Assembly: GCA_013151235.1 (NCBI GenBank)
Contig: JAADIO010000033.1
Coordinates: forward strand, 45,240 to 109,239
Direction: 5' to 3'
From: Deltaproteobacteria bacterium
Lineage (GTDB): Bacteria; CG2-30-53-67
Length of the DNA: 64,000 nucleotides
A program made the position numbers and the translations under genes. A model generated the notes under the pieces. The model was given only the letters and a program-made list of their open reading frames with translations. It was not told the DNA's origin and made no database searches. Shown in pieces: positions 4,257 to 61,482 of this stretch (its first letter is position 1; every line of letters starts with the position of its first letter).

Positions 4257-4709
4257 GATTTCCCTCCTCTTGAATGTAATGAAATTCCCCTGTCAAGTAC
4301 AGGGCCTCTAAAGTGGTGCCGGGTAAGCCCCGGTTCACTCTCCAACGGGTTTACTAAAAAGATTTACCAACGCTCGCTTTTGTTGTTTTCGGGTTTGTTG
4401 TAAATTGTTCAGCAATATTAATCAGTTGAGAGAGGGGTCCATGTTCTACTCCAAAGACCACAAAACCAGCTACTTATTCGATCCTTTCGAGTTCCTGAGG
4501 GAAGCAAAGACGCAAGTTGCTTACACAATCCTGGACACATCTCTTCCGGGAGGAGATCCTTCCCGATCTATCCGTAGAGAAACTTGCTCCTTATATCTTG
4601 ACCAAAAAGGTGTGAACCTCCAAACAACTTCTGTTGCCTGATACGCCATGGAGTATCAGGCCAAGCTTTGAAGTAAAAAACAAGAATACGGTGGCATTTG
4701 AGGGCCCCA
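4257..4709. other. Intergenic scar zone upstream of ccoN
   Basis: This stretch between ccoN and the Rrf2 gene has no intact gene. It holds the ccoN ribosome binding site and leader (to about 4440), a decayed transposase fragment (4441-4615) and an 8-bp perfect hairpin at 4637-4660 (CCTGATAC/GTATCAGG) of unknown role just after it. A dispersed repeat follows at 4710. Confidence 0.6.
4441..4615 (+). pseudogene. IS1182-like transposase remnant, frameshifted and truncated
   Basis: The first frame reads MFYSKDHKTSYLFDPFEFL from 4441. The frame then shifts near 4495-4502 and reading resumes as KQRRKLLTQSWTHLFREEIL, then PDLSVEKLAPY, ending at a TGA at 4613. Joined across the shift, this is the characteristic N-terminus of IS1182-family transposases (remembered pattern KDHKT..LFDP...L..KRR.LL..SW..LFREEILP.LPVEKLAPYF). 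Only about 57 of roughly 450 residues remain, so it is dead. The remainder and the IS ends are not visible. Confidence is limited because no alignment could be run. Confidence 0.6.
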
Positions 4710-18324: not shown

Positions 18325-19536
18325 TCATATCTGTTCCAGGAAATGGCCCATCTTCTCTTTCTTCGTTTTCAGATATTCAACATTGCATTTCCTCGACTTC
18401 ATTTCAATGGGAACACGTTCCTGAATCTCCAGGTCATACCCTTTGAGACCGATGATTTTCTTCGGGTTGTTGGTTAACAGCCGGATTTTATGGACGCCTA
18501 AATCTACGAGAATCTGGGCTCCGATTCCATAGTCCCTGAGGTCGGCTTTGAATCCGAGCTTTTCGTTGGCCTCCACCGTATCGAGTCCTTCATCCTGCAG
18601 GGCATAGGCGCGGATCTTGTTGGCCAGCCCGATCCCCCTCCCCTCCTGCCGCATATAAAGGAGCACCCCCTTCCCTTCCTCGTCGATCCGCTCCATTGCG
18701 GCATGGAGCTGATCCCCGCAGTCGCAGCGTTTAGACCCGAGCACATCGCCGGTAAGACACTCCGAGTGGACCCGGACCAGGACCGCTTCGTCGGGTCTGA
18801 TCTCCCCCTTCACGAGAGCAATATGTTCCTTGTTGTCGACATCGTTTTCGTAGACGATGACCCGGAAATCACCGCCGTAAACGGAGGGGAGAGCAGCCTC
18901 CGCTGCGCGACGTACGAAAGATTCATTCTGCATCCGGTAGGCGATCAGGTCCCGGATCGTGACGATCTTCAAATCATGTTCCCGTGCGAATTCGATCAGT
19001 TCCGGCATACGGGACATGGTGCCGTCCTCGTTCATGATTTCGCAGATCACCCCGGCCGGTTCCAGGCCGGCCAGCCTCGACAGATCGACGGAGCCCTCCG
19101 TCTGCCCGGCCCGCTGCAGAACACCGCCGGAGCGTGCCCGGAGGGGAAAGATATGACCGGGGCGGACCAGGTCGCAGGACCGGGCGTCCGGACTCGCCGC
19201 CGCCAGAATGGTCGTTGCCCGGTCGGCGGCGGAGATCCCCGTGGTTACGCCGTGCCGGGCCTCAATCGATACGGTAAAGGCCGTCCCGAAAGATGCCTCG
19301 TTTTCCCGTGTCATCTGCGGCAGATCAAGGGTCTCCACCTTCTCCGGCGTCAGCGAAAGACAGATCAGCCCCCGGCCGTATTTTGCCATGAAGTTGATCG
19401 CCTCGGGAGTCACCTTCCCGGCGGCCATCGTGAGATCCCCTTCGTTTTCCCGGTCTTCATCGTCCACGAGAATCACCATTTTTCCCTGGCGGATATCCTC
19501 GATCGCCTCTTCGATGGTATGGATATTCTTCTTCAT
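18325..19536 (-). CDS. ribBA: Bifunctional RibBA (DHBP synthase / GTP cyclohydrolase II)
   Basis: A 403-residue fusion. Residues 1-200 are DHBP synthase ([31 protein letters not shown]); the rest is GTP cyclohydrolase II with the zinc set in [11 protein letters not shown] and RQEGRGIGL. The ATG follows AAAGGAAAGGAAC. A transposable element sits directly upstream, between this gene and ribE, so its transcription from the riboswitch must pass through the element. Confidence 0.97.
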
Positions 19537-19557
19537 CTCTGTTCCTTTCCTTTACAT

Positions 19558-19689
19558 GATGGTCTCGTAAAAAGTCACAAAGCCCTTCGACAGGCTCAGG
19601 GCGAACGGTGTAAGTGATTGATGTTCCGTTCGTGGTGAGCTTGTCGAACCATGAACGGAATCCGGAAAACGACTTTTTACGACTTCATC
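19558..19689. mobile_element. MITE-like element, copy 1 (132 bp) with 6-bp target duplication
   Basis: The ends are GATGGTCTCGTAAAAAGTC and the complement of GATGAAGTCGTAAAAAGTC: 19-bp terminal inverted repeats with three mismatches. Both flanks read TTACAT (19552-19557 and 19690-19695), a perfect 6-bp duplication. The interior carries CCCTTCGACAGGCTCAGGG and TTCGTGGTGAGCTTGTCGAA type motifs. No coding capacity. It lies between ribE and ribBA; the right duplication overlaps the ribE stop codon. Confidence 0.88.
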
Positions 19690-20346
19690 TTACATAAACC
19701 CGTGTTCCGCAAGAAATCCCGAATCGATCCCCCGGCCCGCATCTTTGCTCCCTTCTTCCCGCAGATCCAGAAAACGGTAAACATATTTCCCGATCAGGTC
19801 CCCTTCGAGATTGACGCGGCTTCCAACCAATTTCTTCTCCAGTGTGGTTTTTCGAAGGGTGTGGGGAATAATCGAGACCGTAAACGTTTTTGCCTTGAGT
19901 TCATTCAACGTCAGGCTGACGCCGTCGATGGCGATCGATCCCTTCGGAATGGAAGAACGGAGGATCTCCTCCGGCGCCTGAAAGGTCATGATCACGGCAT
20001 TGCCCACCGGCCTGCGGTCGGTCAGTCTTCCGATCCCGTCCACATGACCGCTGACCAGATGTCCACCAAACCGTCCGACGGCCGGTATGGCACGCTCCAG
20101 ATTGACCCGATCCCCCGGCCGGAAATCCCCTAGGATCGTCGCAGAAAGGGTCTCCGGAGAAACATCCACAGTGAAAGAGGTTTTGTTGAACTGTACAACC
20201 GTCAGACAGGCCCCGCTCACGGCAATGCTGTCTCCCGGCCGCACGTCCTTCAGGACGGTTTTTGCCTTCACCGTCATACGGGCGCTCTCAGCACCAGTAT
20301 GCAGCTCGGCGATCTCTCCGATCTCTTCGATGATGCCTGTAAACAT
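19690..20346 (-). CDS. ribE: Riboflavin synthase alpha chain
   Basis: A 218-residue enzyme made of two lumazine-binding repeats, starting MFTGIIEEIG, with SGACLTV and GHLVSGHVDG in repeat 1/linker and DGVSLTLN in repeat 2. It converts lumazine to riboflavin. The gene ends exactly in the target duplication of the mobile element, and the last residues EHGFM lie at the insertion point, so the natural C-terminus may have been altered slightly. Confidence 0.96.
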   Translation of the reverse strand: MFTGIIEEIGEIAELHTGAESARMTVKAKTVLKDVRPGDSIAVSGACLTVVQFNKTSFTVDVSPETLSATILGDFRPGDRVNLERAIPAVGRFGGHLVSGHVDGIGRLTDRRPVGNAVIMTFQAPEEILRSSIPKGSIAIDGVSLTLNELKAKTFTVSIIPHTLRKTTLEKKLVGSRVNLEGDLIGKYVYRFLDLREEGSKDAGRGIDSGFLAEHGFM

Positions 20347-21610: not shown

Positions 21611-21646
21611 CACACTTAACACAGAGAGATACACTCCAAGTGTAAA

Positions 21647-21765
21647 CCTTCTCTCATCCAGACTTTCACTGTCGGCTCCTGATTTTCACAGGATCAGTCC
21701 CCGGCGGAACACCGGGGAGTCGCGGGCTTTGACCGCCGGTCGGGATTTTCACCCGGCCCCGAAGG
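21647..21765 (-). ncRNA. FMN riboswitch (RFN element)
   Basis: Read on the minus strand it contains the conserved RFN blocks in order: CTTCGGGGCCGGGTG, AAATCCCGACCGGCGGT, AGCCCGCGA, then GATCCTGTGAAAATCAGGAG, CCGACAGTGAAAGTCTGGAT and GAGAGAAGG. The closing helix pairs CCTTC with GAAGG. It senses FMN and controls the rib genes downstream; what share of the 16-gene run it governs is unknown. Confidence 0.97.
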
Positions 21766-21790
21766 TTTAACGATATTCAAATGCGTTTAC

Positions 21791-59407: not shown

Positions 59408-59566
59408 GATGAAGTCGTAAAAAGTCGTTTTCCGGATTCCGTTCATGGTTCGACAGGCTCACCACGAACGGAATATCAATCACTTACACCGTTCGCTCGC
59501 CCTGAGCACGCCTGTCCTGAGCCGGTCGAAGGGTCGAAGGGCTTTGTGACTTTTTACGAGACCATC
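59408..59566. mobile_element. MITE-like element, copy 2 (159 bp), inverted relative to copy 1
   Basis: Ends GATGAAGTCGTAAAAAGTC and the complement of GATGGTCTCGTAAAAAGTC. Both flanks read AACCAA (59402-59407 and 59567-59572), a perfect 6-bp duplication. The core matches copy 1 except for about 27 extra bases where a CCTGAGC...GTCGAAGGG piece is partly repeated. It lies between mtaB and the fabG-like gene, whose stop codon overlaps its end. Confidence 0.88.
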
Positions 59567-60305
59567 AACCAATACGGCTGTCGACACAAAAAACCTGTCC
59601 CGTAACCCCCTCCAATCGTACCAGGTTCCCGACAAAAAGGAAAACCTCCCGGGGATCACAGAACCGGTGCAGACAGCTCTCCCGCAATGCCCTCGCACGA
59701 ACCTGATCGGGGAGCCGCTTTGTCATGTCGGTCTCCATGAAACCGGGGCTGACGGCGTTCACCCGGATATTCATCGGTCCTAATTCACGGGCCGCAGCGC
59801 GGGTCAGGCCGACCAATCCCGCCTTGGCGGCTGCATAATTCGCCTGACCGGTGCTCCCCCGCACCCCGGCAATGGAGACGATATTCACGATCCGGCCACC
59901 CCCCTGCTTTTCCATGACCGGCGTCACCCGGCGGATCAGGCGGAAGGGGGCGGAAAGGCAGGTTTCCATCACCGACGACCAGGCCCCCTCGGAGAGTGAG
60001 ACCAACGGTCCGTCATGGATTTCTCCGGCATTGTTGATCAGGACATGCAGGCCGCCCCAGATATCGAGAACCCGGTCGACCATTCGTGCTGCACTTTCCG
60101 GCACCGAAAGATCGGCCGCCACGGAAACAGCTTTCCCGCCATTCTCCCGGATCCGGCGGACCGTCTCCTCCGCTGCATCACGATCCGACCGGAAATGAAC
60201 CGCCACGCGATATCCGGAACGGGCGAAACCGATGGACAGAGTACGACCCAGTCCACGGGAACCGCCGGTAACCAGAACGACTTCCTTTTCTTCCCCTGCC
60301 GTCAT
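59565..60305 (-). CDS. SDR-family 3-oxoacyl-ACP reductase-like protein
   Basis: 246 residues: TGGSRGLGR (13-21), NNAG (91-94), Ser144, Tyr157 and Lys161 in YAAAK, and NAVSPGFMETDM, all FabG-like. The ATG follows GAGG; bioF ends 7 bases upstream. Being the last gene of the biotin operon, it may help supply pimelate or another acyl chain, but general fatty acid reduction is possible too. Its stop is in the transposable-element junction. Confidence 0.85.
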   Translation of the reverse strand: MTAGEEKEVVLVTGGSRGLGRTLSIGFARSGYRVAVHFRSDRDAAEETVRRIRENGGKAVSVAADLSVPESAARMVDRVLDIWGGLHVLINNAGEIHDGPLVSLSEGAWSSVMETCLSAPFRLIRRVTPVMEKQGGGRIVNIVSIAGVRGSTGQANYAAAKAGLVGLTRAAARELGPMNIRVNAVSPGFMETDMTKRLPDQVRARALRESCLHRFCDPREVFLFVGNLVRLEGVTGQVFCVDSRIG

Positions 60306-60312
60306 CCGATCC

Positions 60313-61482
60313 TCACGCTCCCCTCCCGACCCGGTCAAGCGCTTTCTGCAGGGAGGAGACCACCCATGCCATTTCCTCCGGGGTGTGGGTCGCCATCACC
60401 GAAAAGCGGAGCCTCGACCTCCCTTCGGGAACGGTCGGAGGACGAATGGCCGGCGCAAAAATCCCCCGATCGAAAAGATCTCCGGCCACCCGAACCGCCT
60501 TTTCCGCCGGTCCGAGGATCACGGGAAAGATCGGCGTCTCCCGCGATACGGAGGAAAAACCTATCGATTCAAGCCCTTCCGCCAGAAACTCAATGTTCCG
60601 CCTGAGCCTCGCCCGAAGCTTTTCTCCCTCTTCTCCCTGAACGAGGGCAAGAGCCGCCGAGGAGGCCGCCAGGACCGCGGGGGGCAGGGCCGTGGAATAG
60701 ATCAGCGGACGGGCCCTGTTGATCAGCATTTTGATCAGGTCCCTGCTTCCGGCAACGTAGGCGCCGAAGGAACCGAAGGCCTTGCCGAGTGTCCCCATAC
60801 GGAGGGTAATGCCGCTCTCCAGATCGAAATAATCGACCGCTCCCCTCCCCTTCTTCCCCAACCAACCCGTGGCATGGGCCTCATCAAGATAGATGTGGGC
60901 ATCATACCGTCCGGCGAGTTTCTCGATCGCGGGAAGCGGAGCAATATCGCCATCCATACTGAAGACACTCTCTGTGGCAATCCATCGAGCCCCACCACAA
61001 GTATTTGCTTTAAGTTTATTCTCCAACTCTTTGATATGTATATGTTTATACACAACGATACCGGATCGTGAAAGACGACACCCGTCGATGATAGAGGCAT
61101 GATTCAGCGCATCGCTGAAGATCCGACCCCCCTCCCGGGTAAGAGCGGAGAGTACACCGGTATTTGCCGCATAACCGGAATTAAAGAGAAGGACCGCCTC
61201 ACATCCCAAAAAGTCGGCGATCTCTTCCTCTAATTTCGCATGGAGCCGGGAGGTACCGGAAAGAAGACGCGAGGAACCACTGCCGGTCCCCCATTCGGCA
61301 ATAGCCTCAGACGCTGCGGCTTTCAACACAGGATGCCCGGCCAGTCCCAGGTAATCATTGGAGGCGAGACAGATCAGGTCCCTCCCCCCGATCCGGATGC
61401 GGGAACCCTGGGGAGAATCGACCCTCTGCAGCCTTCGATAAAGCCCCTCGGTCTTCAACCAGGCAAGCGATTCTTTAAACAC
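60313..61482 (-). CDS. bioF: 8-amino-7-oxononanoate synthase BioF
   Basis: 389 residues, PLP enzyme: SNDYLGLAGHP, GTGSGSSRLLSGT, DEAHATGWLG and the Lys in TLGKAFGSFGAYV. It condenses pimeloyl-CoA with alanine. The start is a GTG with GGAGG six bases upstream, overlapping bioW by 8 bases. Confidence 0.95.
   Translation of the reverse strand: MFKESLAWLKTEGLYRRLQRVDSPQGSRIRIGGRDLICLASNDYLGLAGHPVLKAAASEAIAEWGTGSGSSRLLSGTSRLHAKLEEEIADFLGCEAVLLFNSGYAANTGVLSALTREGGRIFSDALNHASIIDGCRLSRSGIVVYKHIHIKELENKLKANTCGGARWIATESVFSMDGDIAPLPAIEKLAGRYDAHIYLDEAHATGWLGKKGRGAVDYFDLESGITLRMGTLGKAFGSFGAYVAGSRDLIKMLINRARPLIYSTALPPAVLAASSAALALVQGEEGEKLRARLRRNIEFLAEGLESIGFSSVSRETPIFPVILGPAEKAVRVAGDLFDRGIFAPAIRPPTVPEGRSRLRFSVMATHTPEEMAWVVSSLQKALDRVGRGA

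Follow-up and report, generated by a model that had tools for sequence, protein, structure and literature searches.

Chunjie, a MITE of Geobacter uraniireducens (Chen et al. 2008, as described in the review PMC10969869), is the nearest described case to the element reported here. It is 178-235 bp long and occurs in dozens of copies, some of them partial. As far as the review describes it, Chunjie is a close parallel, since both are short non-coding MITEs with conserved ends, direct repeats and size-variable copies, one of which lies inside an operon. The two differ in host and in length (104-227 bp for the present family), and the likeness is one of published description rather than of end sequence. 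The Correia elements of Neisseria resemble the element in being high-copy MITEs that can be transcribed within operons, and RNase III cleaves the hairpins that they form in mRNA (PMC10969869). They belong to an unrelated host and, as far as is known, are unrelated in sequence. The GTAG- and CGTC-tagged REPs, of which those linked to RAYTs carry the GTAG tag, are short palindromic repeats broadly similar in kind to the interior of the element (PMC3733652). In contrast to these REPs, the palindromes described here are enclosed by transposon ends and target duplications. Neither TTCGAC nor GCTCA appears in the main text of PMC3733652, and literature searches with the end and interior sequences returned nothing relevant. 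The element represents a new MITE family of an already known kind.

The window, which is the whole stretch of 64,000 nucleotides that was analysed (positions 45240-109239 of contig C33, in a genome of 2.62 Mb and 73 contigs), contains a non-coding insertion of 132 bp that is abutted on both sides by TTACAT, as read directly from the sequence. We interpret this insertion, with a probability of about 0.93, as a MITE, that is, a non-autonomous DNA transposon that contains no gene and whose ends would be recognised by a DDE transposase. Its most likely mobiliser would be an IS1182-related clade that has ends of approximately GAYGnnnnnGYAAAAAGTC and duplicates 6-7 bp of AT-rich target. The features are as follows.

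19552-19557, no strand: target duplication, left copy, TTACAT (sequence read)
19558-19689, no strand: putative MITE, 132 bp (sequence, genome copies, empty site in G001)
19558-19576, plus strand: left terminal inverted repeat, GATGGTCTCGTAAAAAGTC (sequence and end-motif search)
19583-19608, plus strand: interior module 1, CCCTTCGACAGGCTCAGGGCGAACGG (sequence, predicted fold, copy comparison)
19626-19658, plus strand: interior palindrome 2, CCGTTCGTGGTGAGCTTGTCGAACCATGAACGG (sequence, predicted fold, copy comparison)
19671-19689, minus strand: right terminal inverted repeat, reading GATGAAGTCGTAAAAAGTC on the minus strand (sequence and end-motif search)
19690-19695, no strand: target duplication, right copy, TTACAT (holds the ribE stop codon)
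19690-20346, minus strand: ribE, riboflavin synthase (NCBIfam TIGR00187, above cut-off)
18325-19536, minus strand: ribBA (NCBIfam NF006803, above cut-off)
4376-4633, plus strand: broken N-terminal fragment of a candidate transposase gene, with a frameshift and a stop (79% identical in DNA over 4376-4594, and traced to 4633 by tblastn in two frames)
59408-59566, no strand: second complete copy of the element in the window, 159 bp (AACCAA on both sides)

On the minus strand the order is FMN riboswitch, ribD, ribE, the element, ribBA, ribH and nusB (gene names checked against NCBIfam), and this order and the gene spacing suggest that the riboflavin genes form one operon. The FMN riboswitch was located by an Rfam search at 21642-21770 on the minus strand, upstream of ribD. 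The ribE open reading frame terminates at 19690, with its TAA stop codon (19690-19692) inside the right-hand TTACAT. A first-pass annotation had described a 132-bp element between ribE and ribBA with TTACAT on both sides and a duplication covering the ribE stop codon, and the sequence bears out both statements. It had also described 19-bp inverted repeats starting with GATG. Such ends, of the GATGnnnTCGTAAAAAGTC type, are present, but GATGGTCTCGTAAAAAGTC and GATGAAGTCGTAAAAAGTC are identical at only 16 of 19 positions, with mismatches at positions 5-7, and the inverted repeat is thus imperfect.

In G001, a genome of the same genus, ribBA is 84% and ribE 81% identical to the genes in the window, and the two matches meet at one point. 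The G001 junction reads TTCCTTATCCTT-TCACAT-AAAACCGTG, with a single TCACAT and no element. Aligned against this empty site, the window reads TTTCCT-TTACAT-element-TTACAT-AAACCCGTG. The empty site, together with the duplications around other copies, the matching IS ends and the lack of an Rfam match over the element, agrees with the earlier proposal of a true insertion. Most simply, the insertion would postdate the separation of the two species.

Using the element as a query, 55 full or partial matches were found in the window's genome. The half-site TCGTAAAAAGTC is present in 76 exact forward and 71 exact reverse copies (147 in all; reversed-pattern control, 0 and 0), and with up to one mismatch it occurs 6 times in the window compared to 0.24 expected. 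From the 147 half-sites we estimate roughly 75 copies in the genome, a count that depends on these searches. Thirty-two distinct complete copies from fetched loci, 104-227 bp in length, were compared. Checking the other copies in the manner suggested by the first-pass annotation revealed exact target duplications outside the GATG/CATC ends in 26 of the 32, with 23 of 6 bp and 3 of 7 bp, whereas left flanks paired with the right flanks of other copies gave an exact 6-bp match in 0.8% of cases. The duplications are AT-rich with a consensus of approximately WWNNWT, and the final base is T in 20 of 23. The family shows the features by which a MITE is recognised: short copies, inside the usual range of about 50-500 bp, without a transposase gene (132 bp being too small for one), terminal inverted repeats whose motif recurs in the other copies, a target duplication of constant length, dispersed copies with an empty site in a relative and, through the G001 insertion sequence described below, ends common to an autonomous element. 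Open frames of at least 150 codons extend across 71% of insertion sites compared to 96% of random flank positions; the shorter frames at insertion sites are a weak hint of intergenic preference, which stop-to-stop frames cannot settle. MITE ends lie within about 140 bases of a contig edge in many contigs of G001 (C2, C6, C9, C13, C16, C27, C48 and others) and in contigs C4, C10, C39 and C45 of G000. The repeats therefore seem to break assemblies, and copy numbers may be underestimates.

Eight DDE_Tnp_1 loci were examined across the genomes G000, G001, G002 and G004. One of them, in G001, lies between GATGAACTCGTAACAAGTC and GATGGCTTCGTAAGAAGTC, each of which is one base off the consensus at its specified positions. 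This insertion sequence (L113, 667-2604) is 1.94 kb long and encodes an IS1182-related DDE transposase with Pfam matches to DDE_Tnp_1_6, DDE_Tnp_1 and DUF772. The frame has 605 residues from a TTG codon, and its stop reaches the terminal repeat. The GATGGCTTCGTAAGAAGTC end, with its unusual G, recurs unchanged over 19 bases as one of the ends of a 153-bp G001 MITE, two copies of which (L184 and L186) have 6-bp duplications. The full-length IS with matching ends that the first-pass annotation had proposed looking for was thus found in G001, and homologues elsewhere share the end motif and the duplication length. No target duplication can be recognised around the G001 IS itself, and for this reason, and because each end is one base off, the copy may be old or dead. 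On these sequence comparisons, its clade is a strong candidate for the mobiliser of the MITE. Another insertion sequence, in G004, had been suggested as the autonomous partner by the TCGTAAAAAGTC-like ends that bracket it, and was rejected because it is a distinct IS that has AGAGACTGTGTCA ends of its own. This IS (L115, contig C150, 583-2494) is inserted within the palindrome of a MITE with GACGGCTTCGTAAAAAGTC ends.

In the window's genome no intact transposase of the clade was found. The copies look like orphans because the fragment at 4376-4633 is all that is recognisable there, unless the assembly has missed an intact IS. A transposase scan of genome contigs returned only G001's own contig (JAJRUP010000066.1), and a scan of viral contigs found no relative. 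In the mechanism that we propose, a transposase of the IS1182-related clade, supplied in trans, would have moved the elements into AT-rich 6-bp targets. It would have come from an IS copy since reduced to a fragment in the window's genome, and the nested palindromes of the interior would be cargo whose form was altered by hairpin slippage. Because this bacterial MITE family has well-defined boundaries, and both an empty site and a candidate transposase are available from a sister species, mobilisation in trans is directly testable.

The explanation that survives best beside this one, although we consider it unlikely, is that the MITE was moved by an unrelated transposase and shares its ends with the IS1182-related clade by coincidence or convergence. 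The window's genome has a fragment of the clade and no intact member, and other transposases do exist there, for example on contigs C20 and C28. However, no such ends flank the transposases on C20 and C28. Coincidence also accords poorly with the full 19-base identity of IS end and MITE end in G001, and with the finding that GAYG...AAAAAGT ends and 6-7-bp duplications accompany even transposases that are just 34-40% identical.

A transposase search over 386 genomes gave 10 with matches at E values of 1e-20 or lower. Three IS copies in G142 have GACGGGGCGGCAAAAAG ends and the duplications AGCTTT, AAATCTA and ATAAATT, and an IS in G126 has GATTCCGGCGCAAAAA ends and the duplication AAACATT. In G377 an IS adjoins a MITE with a GATGACTTCGCAAAAAGTC end, and the genome holds 176 end motifs. 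An IS on a Microvirga plasmid has GACGGGGCGGTAAAAAGT ends and no clear duplication. Overall, the ends of the homologous ISs resemble GAYG...GYAAAAAGTC and are accompanied by 6-7-bp duplications. The exact end motif is present in 6 of the 10 genomes with a homologue (and absent from the other 4) compared to 0 of 26 without one (Fisher p 1e-4, with controls unmatched for kinship). In the transposase tree, four IS1182-type transposases without these ends stand apart with 100/98 support, and the end-bearing transposases form a single branch in only half of the bootstraps.

The curated model nearest to the candidate transposase is the NCBIfam model for IS1182 (NF033551), to which it is homologous over most of its length. 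Its score of 159.2 bits lies under the cut-off of 270. The four IS1182-type transposases, two of which are annotated as such, are about 25-26% identical to the candidate and lack GAYG ends in their fetched flanks, and the candidate falls on the opposite side of the 100/98 branch from the annotated ones. These comparisons suggest a transposase that is related to IS1182, yet not one to be filed as a member of that family. The ISDol1 group of ISNCY is of similar length and also generates 6-7-bp duplications.

The interior of the element consists of nested palindromes of the TTCGACAAGCTCA type. As single-stranded DNA the element folds much better than shuffled sequences (z -4.9), and in the basic 132-bp form the modules CCCTTCGACAGGCTCAGGGCGAACGG and CCGTTCGTGGTGAGCTTGTCGAACCATGAACGG pair mutually in the predicted fold. 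Longer copies carry extra palindromic segments in the module loops and shorter copies lack parts of the modules; hairpin slippage, by deletion and growth, would explain this variation in length. Elements with the same GATG ends and unrelated interiors occur in G001 (153 bp) and, at about 154 bp, in G002 and G004. In G004 and on Sphingobium, Moraxella and Comamonas plasmids, the TTCGACAAGCTCA core is found with no GATG ends around it. Since the ends are found with other interiors and the interiors without these ends, ends and interiors appear to act as separable parts.

The palindromes without GATG ends look like free-standing extragenic palindromes and would suit a second explanation, that the element is a REP/BIME-type palindrome with a REP-like interior, moved by a tyrosine (Y1, RAYT) transposase. 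We regard this as very improbable. IS200/IS605-type transposition gives no target duplication and does not need inverted ends. The copies of the element, unlike the products of such transposition, have both. Their ends are GATG, compared to the GTAG-tagged hairpin of RAYT-linked REPs (PMC3733652).

For the element as a MITE moved by an IS1182-related transposase, the interchange of palindromic interiors between constant ends is the point of greatest interest. We tentatively suggest, as a possibility that we would not yet call probable, that the clade with ends of this kind and 6-7-bp duplications repeatedly yields MITEs in unrelated bacteria, taking differing pre-existing extragenic palindromes as cargo that is then resized by hairpin slippage. 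If true, cargo uptake would be one means by which orphan TTCGACAAGCTCA-type repeats travel. Constant ends with species-specific interiors make it possible to study the spread of palindromic repeats. At four loci in G004 (L143, L155, L163 and L171), paired TTCGACARGCTCA motifs about 31 bp apart lie in larger palindromes that are bounded by GTCATT...AATGAC and lack GATG ends. On viral contigs the end motif was matched mostly at lone sites without a partner, with a few MITE-like copies. On one IMG/VR contig (L097, 5664-5796) a similar end motif surrounds a palindrome of the GTCATTCCGGCGAAAGCCGGAATCCAG type, together with a 6-bp repeat that is nearly perfect, and on another (L094, 1-116) a similar end motif adjoins a TTCGACGGGCTCAGG palindrome.

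Least probable of all is that the element is a functional RNA of the riboflavin operon (an attenuator, processing site or regulatory RNA) and not a transposon, because the strong predicted fold of the transcribed strand of the spacer (-49 kcal/mol, z -2.8) and the one weak terminator-like match inside the element are set against target duplications, roughly 75 copies elsewhere in the genome, the absence of any Rfam family over the element and an empty site at the same place in G001. The last two results led us to reject an RNA gene, a reading that the first-pass annotation had named among those that could overturn its own. A later effect of the inserted MITE on the mRNA is nevertheless conceivable. 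The ribE-ribBA spacer, which is 15 nt without the element and duplication, is now 153 nt, as calculated from the coordinates. The ribE reading frame and the sequence immediately upstream of ribBA are both intact, and with the ribE stop and this upstream sequence preserved, the insertion was probably near neutral for the riboflavin genes. Given the strong fold and the terminator-like match, a small polar effect on these genes is possible.

Most junctions of the copies in the window's genome read TGATG, in which a stop and a start codon overlap, because the duplications mostly end in T and the element begins with GATG. The second complete copy in the window lies at the exact 3' end (window 59560-59572) of a fabG-like gene (59565-60338, minus strand), whose TGA stop is made up jointly by the duplication and the element's first two bases. 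Without the insertion, the left flank would supply the same TGA.
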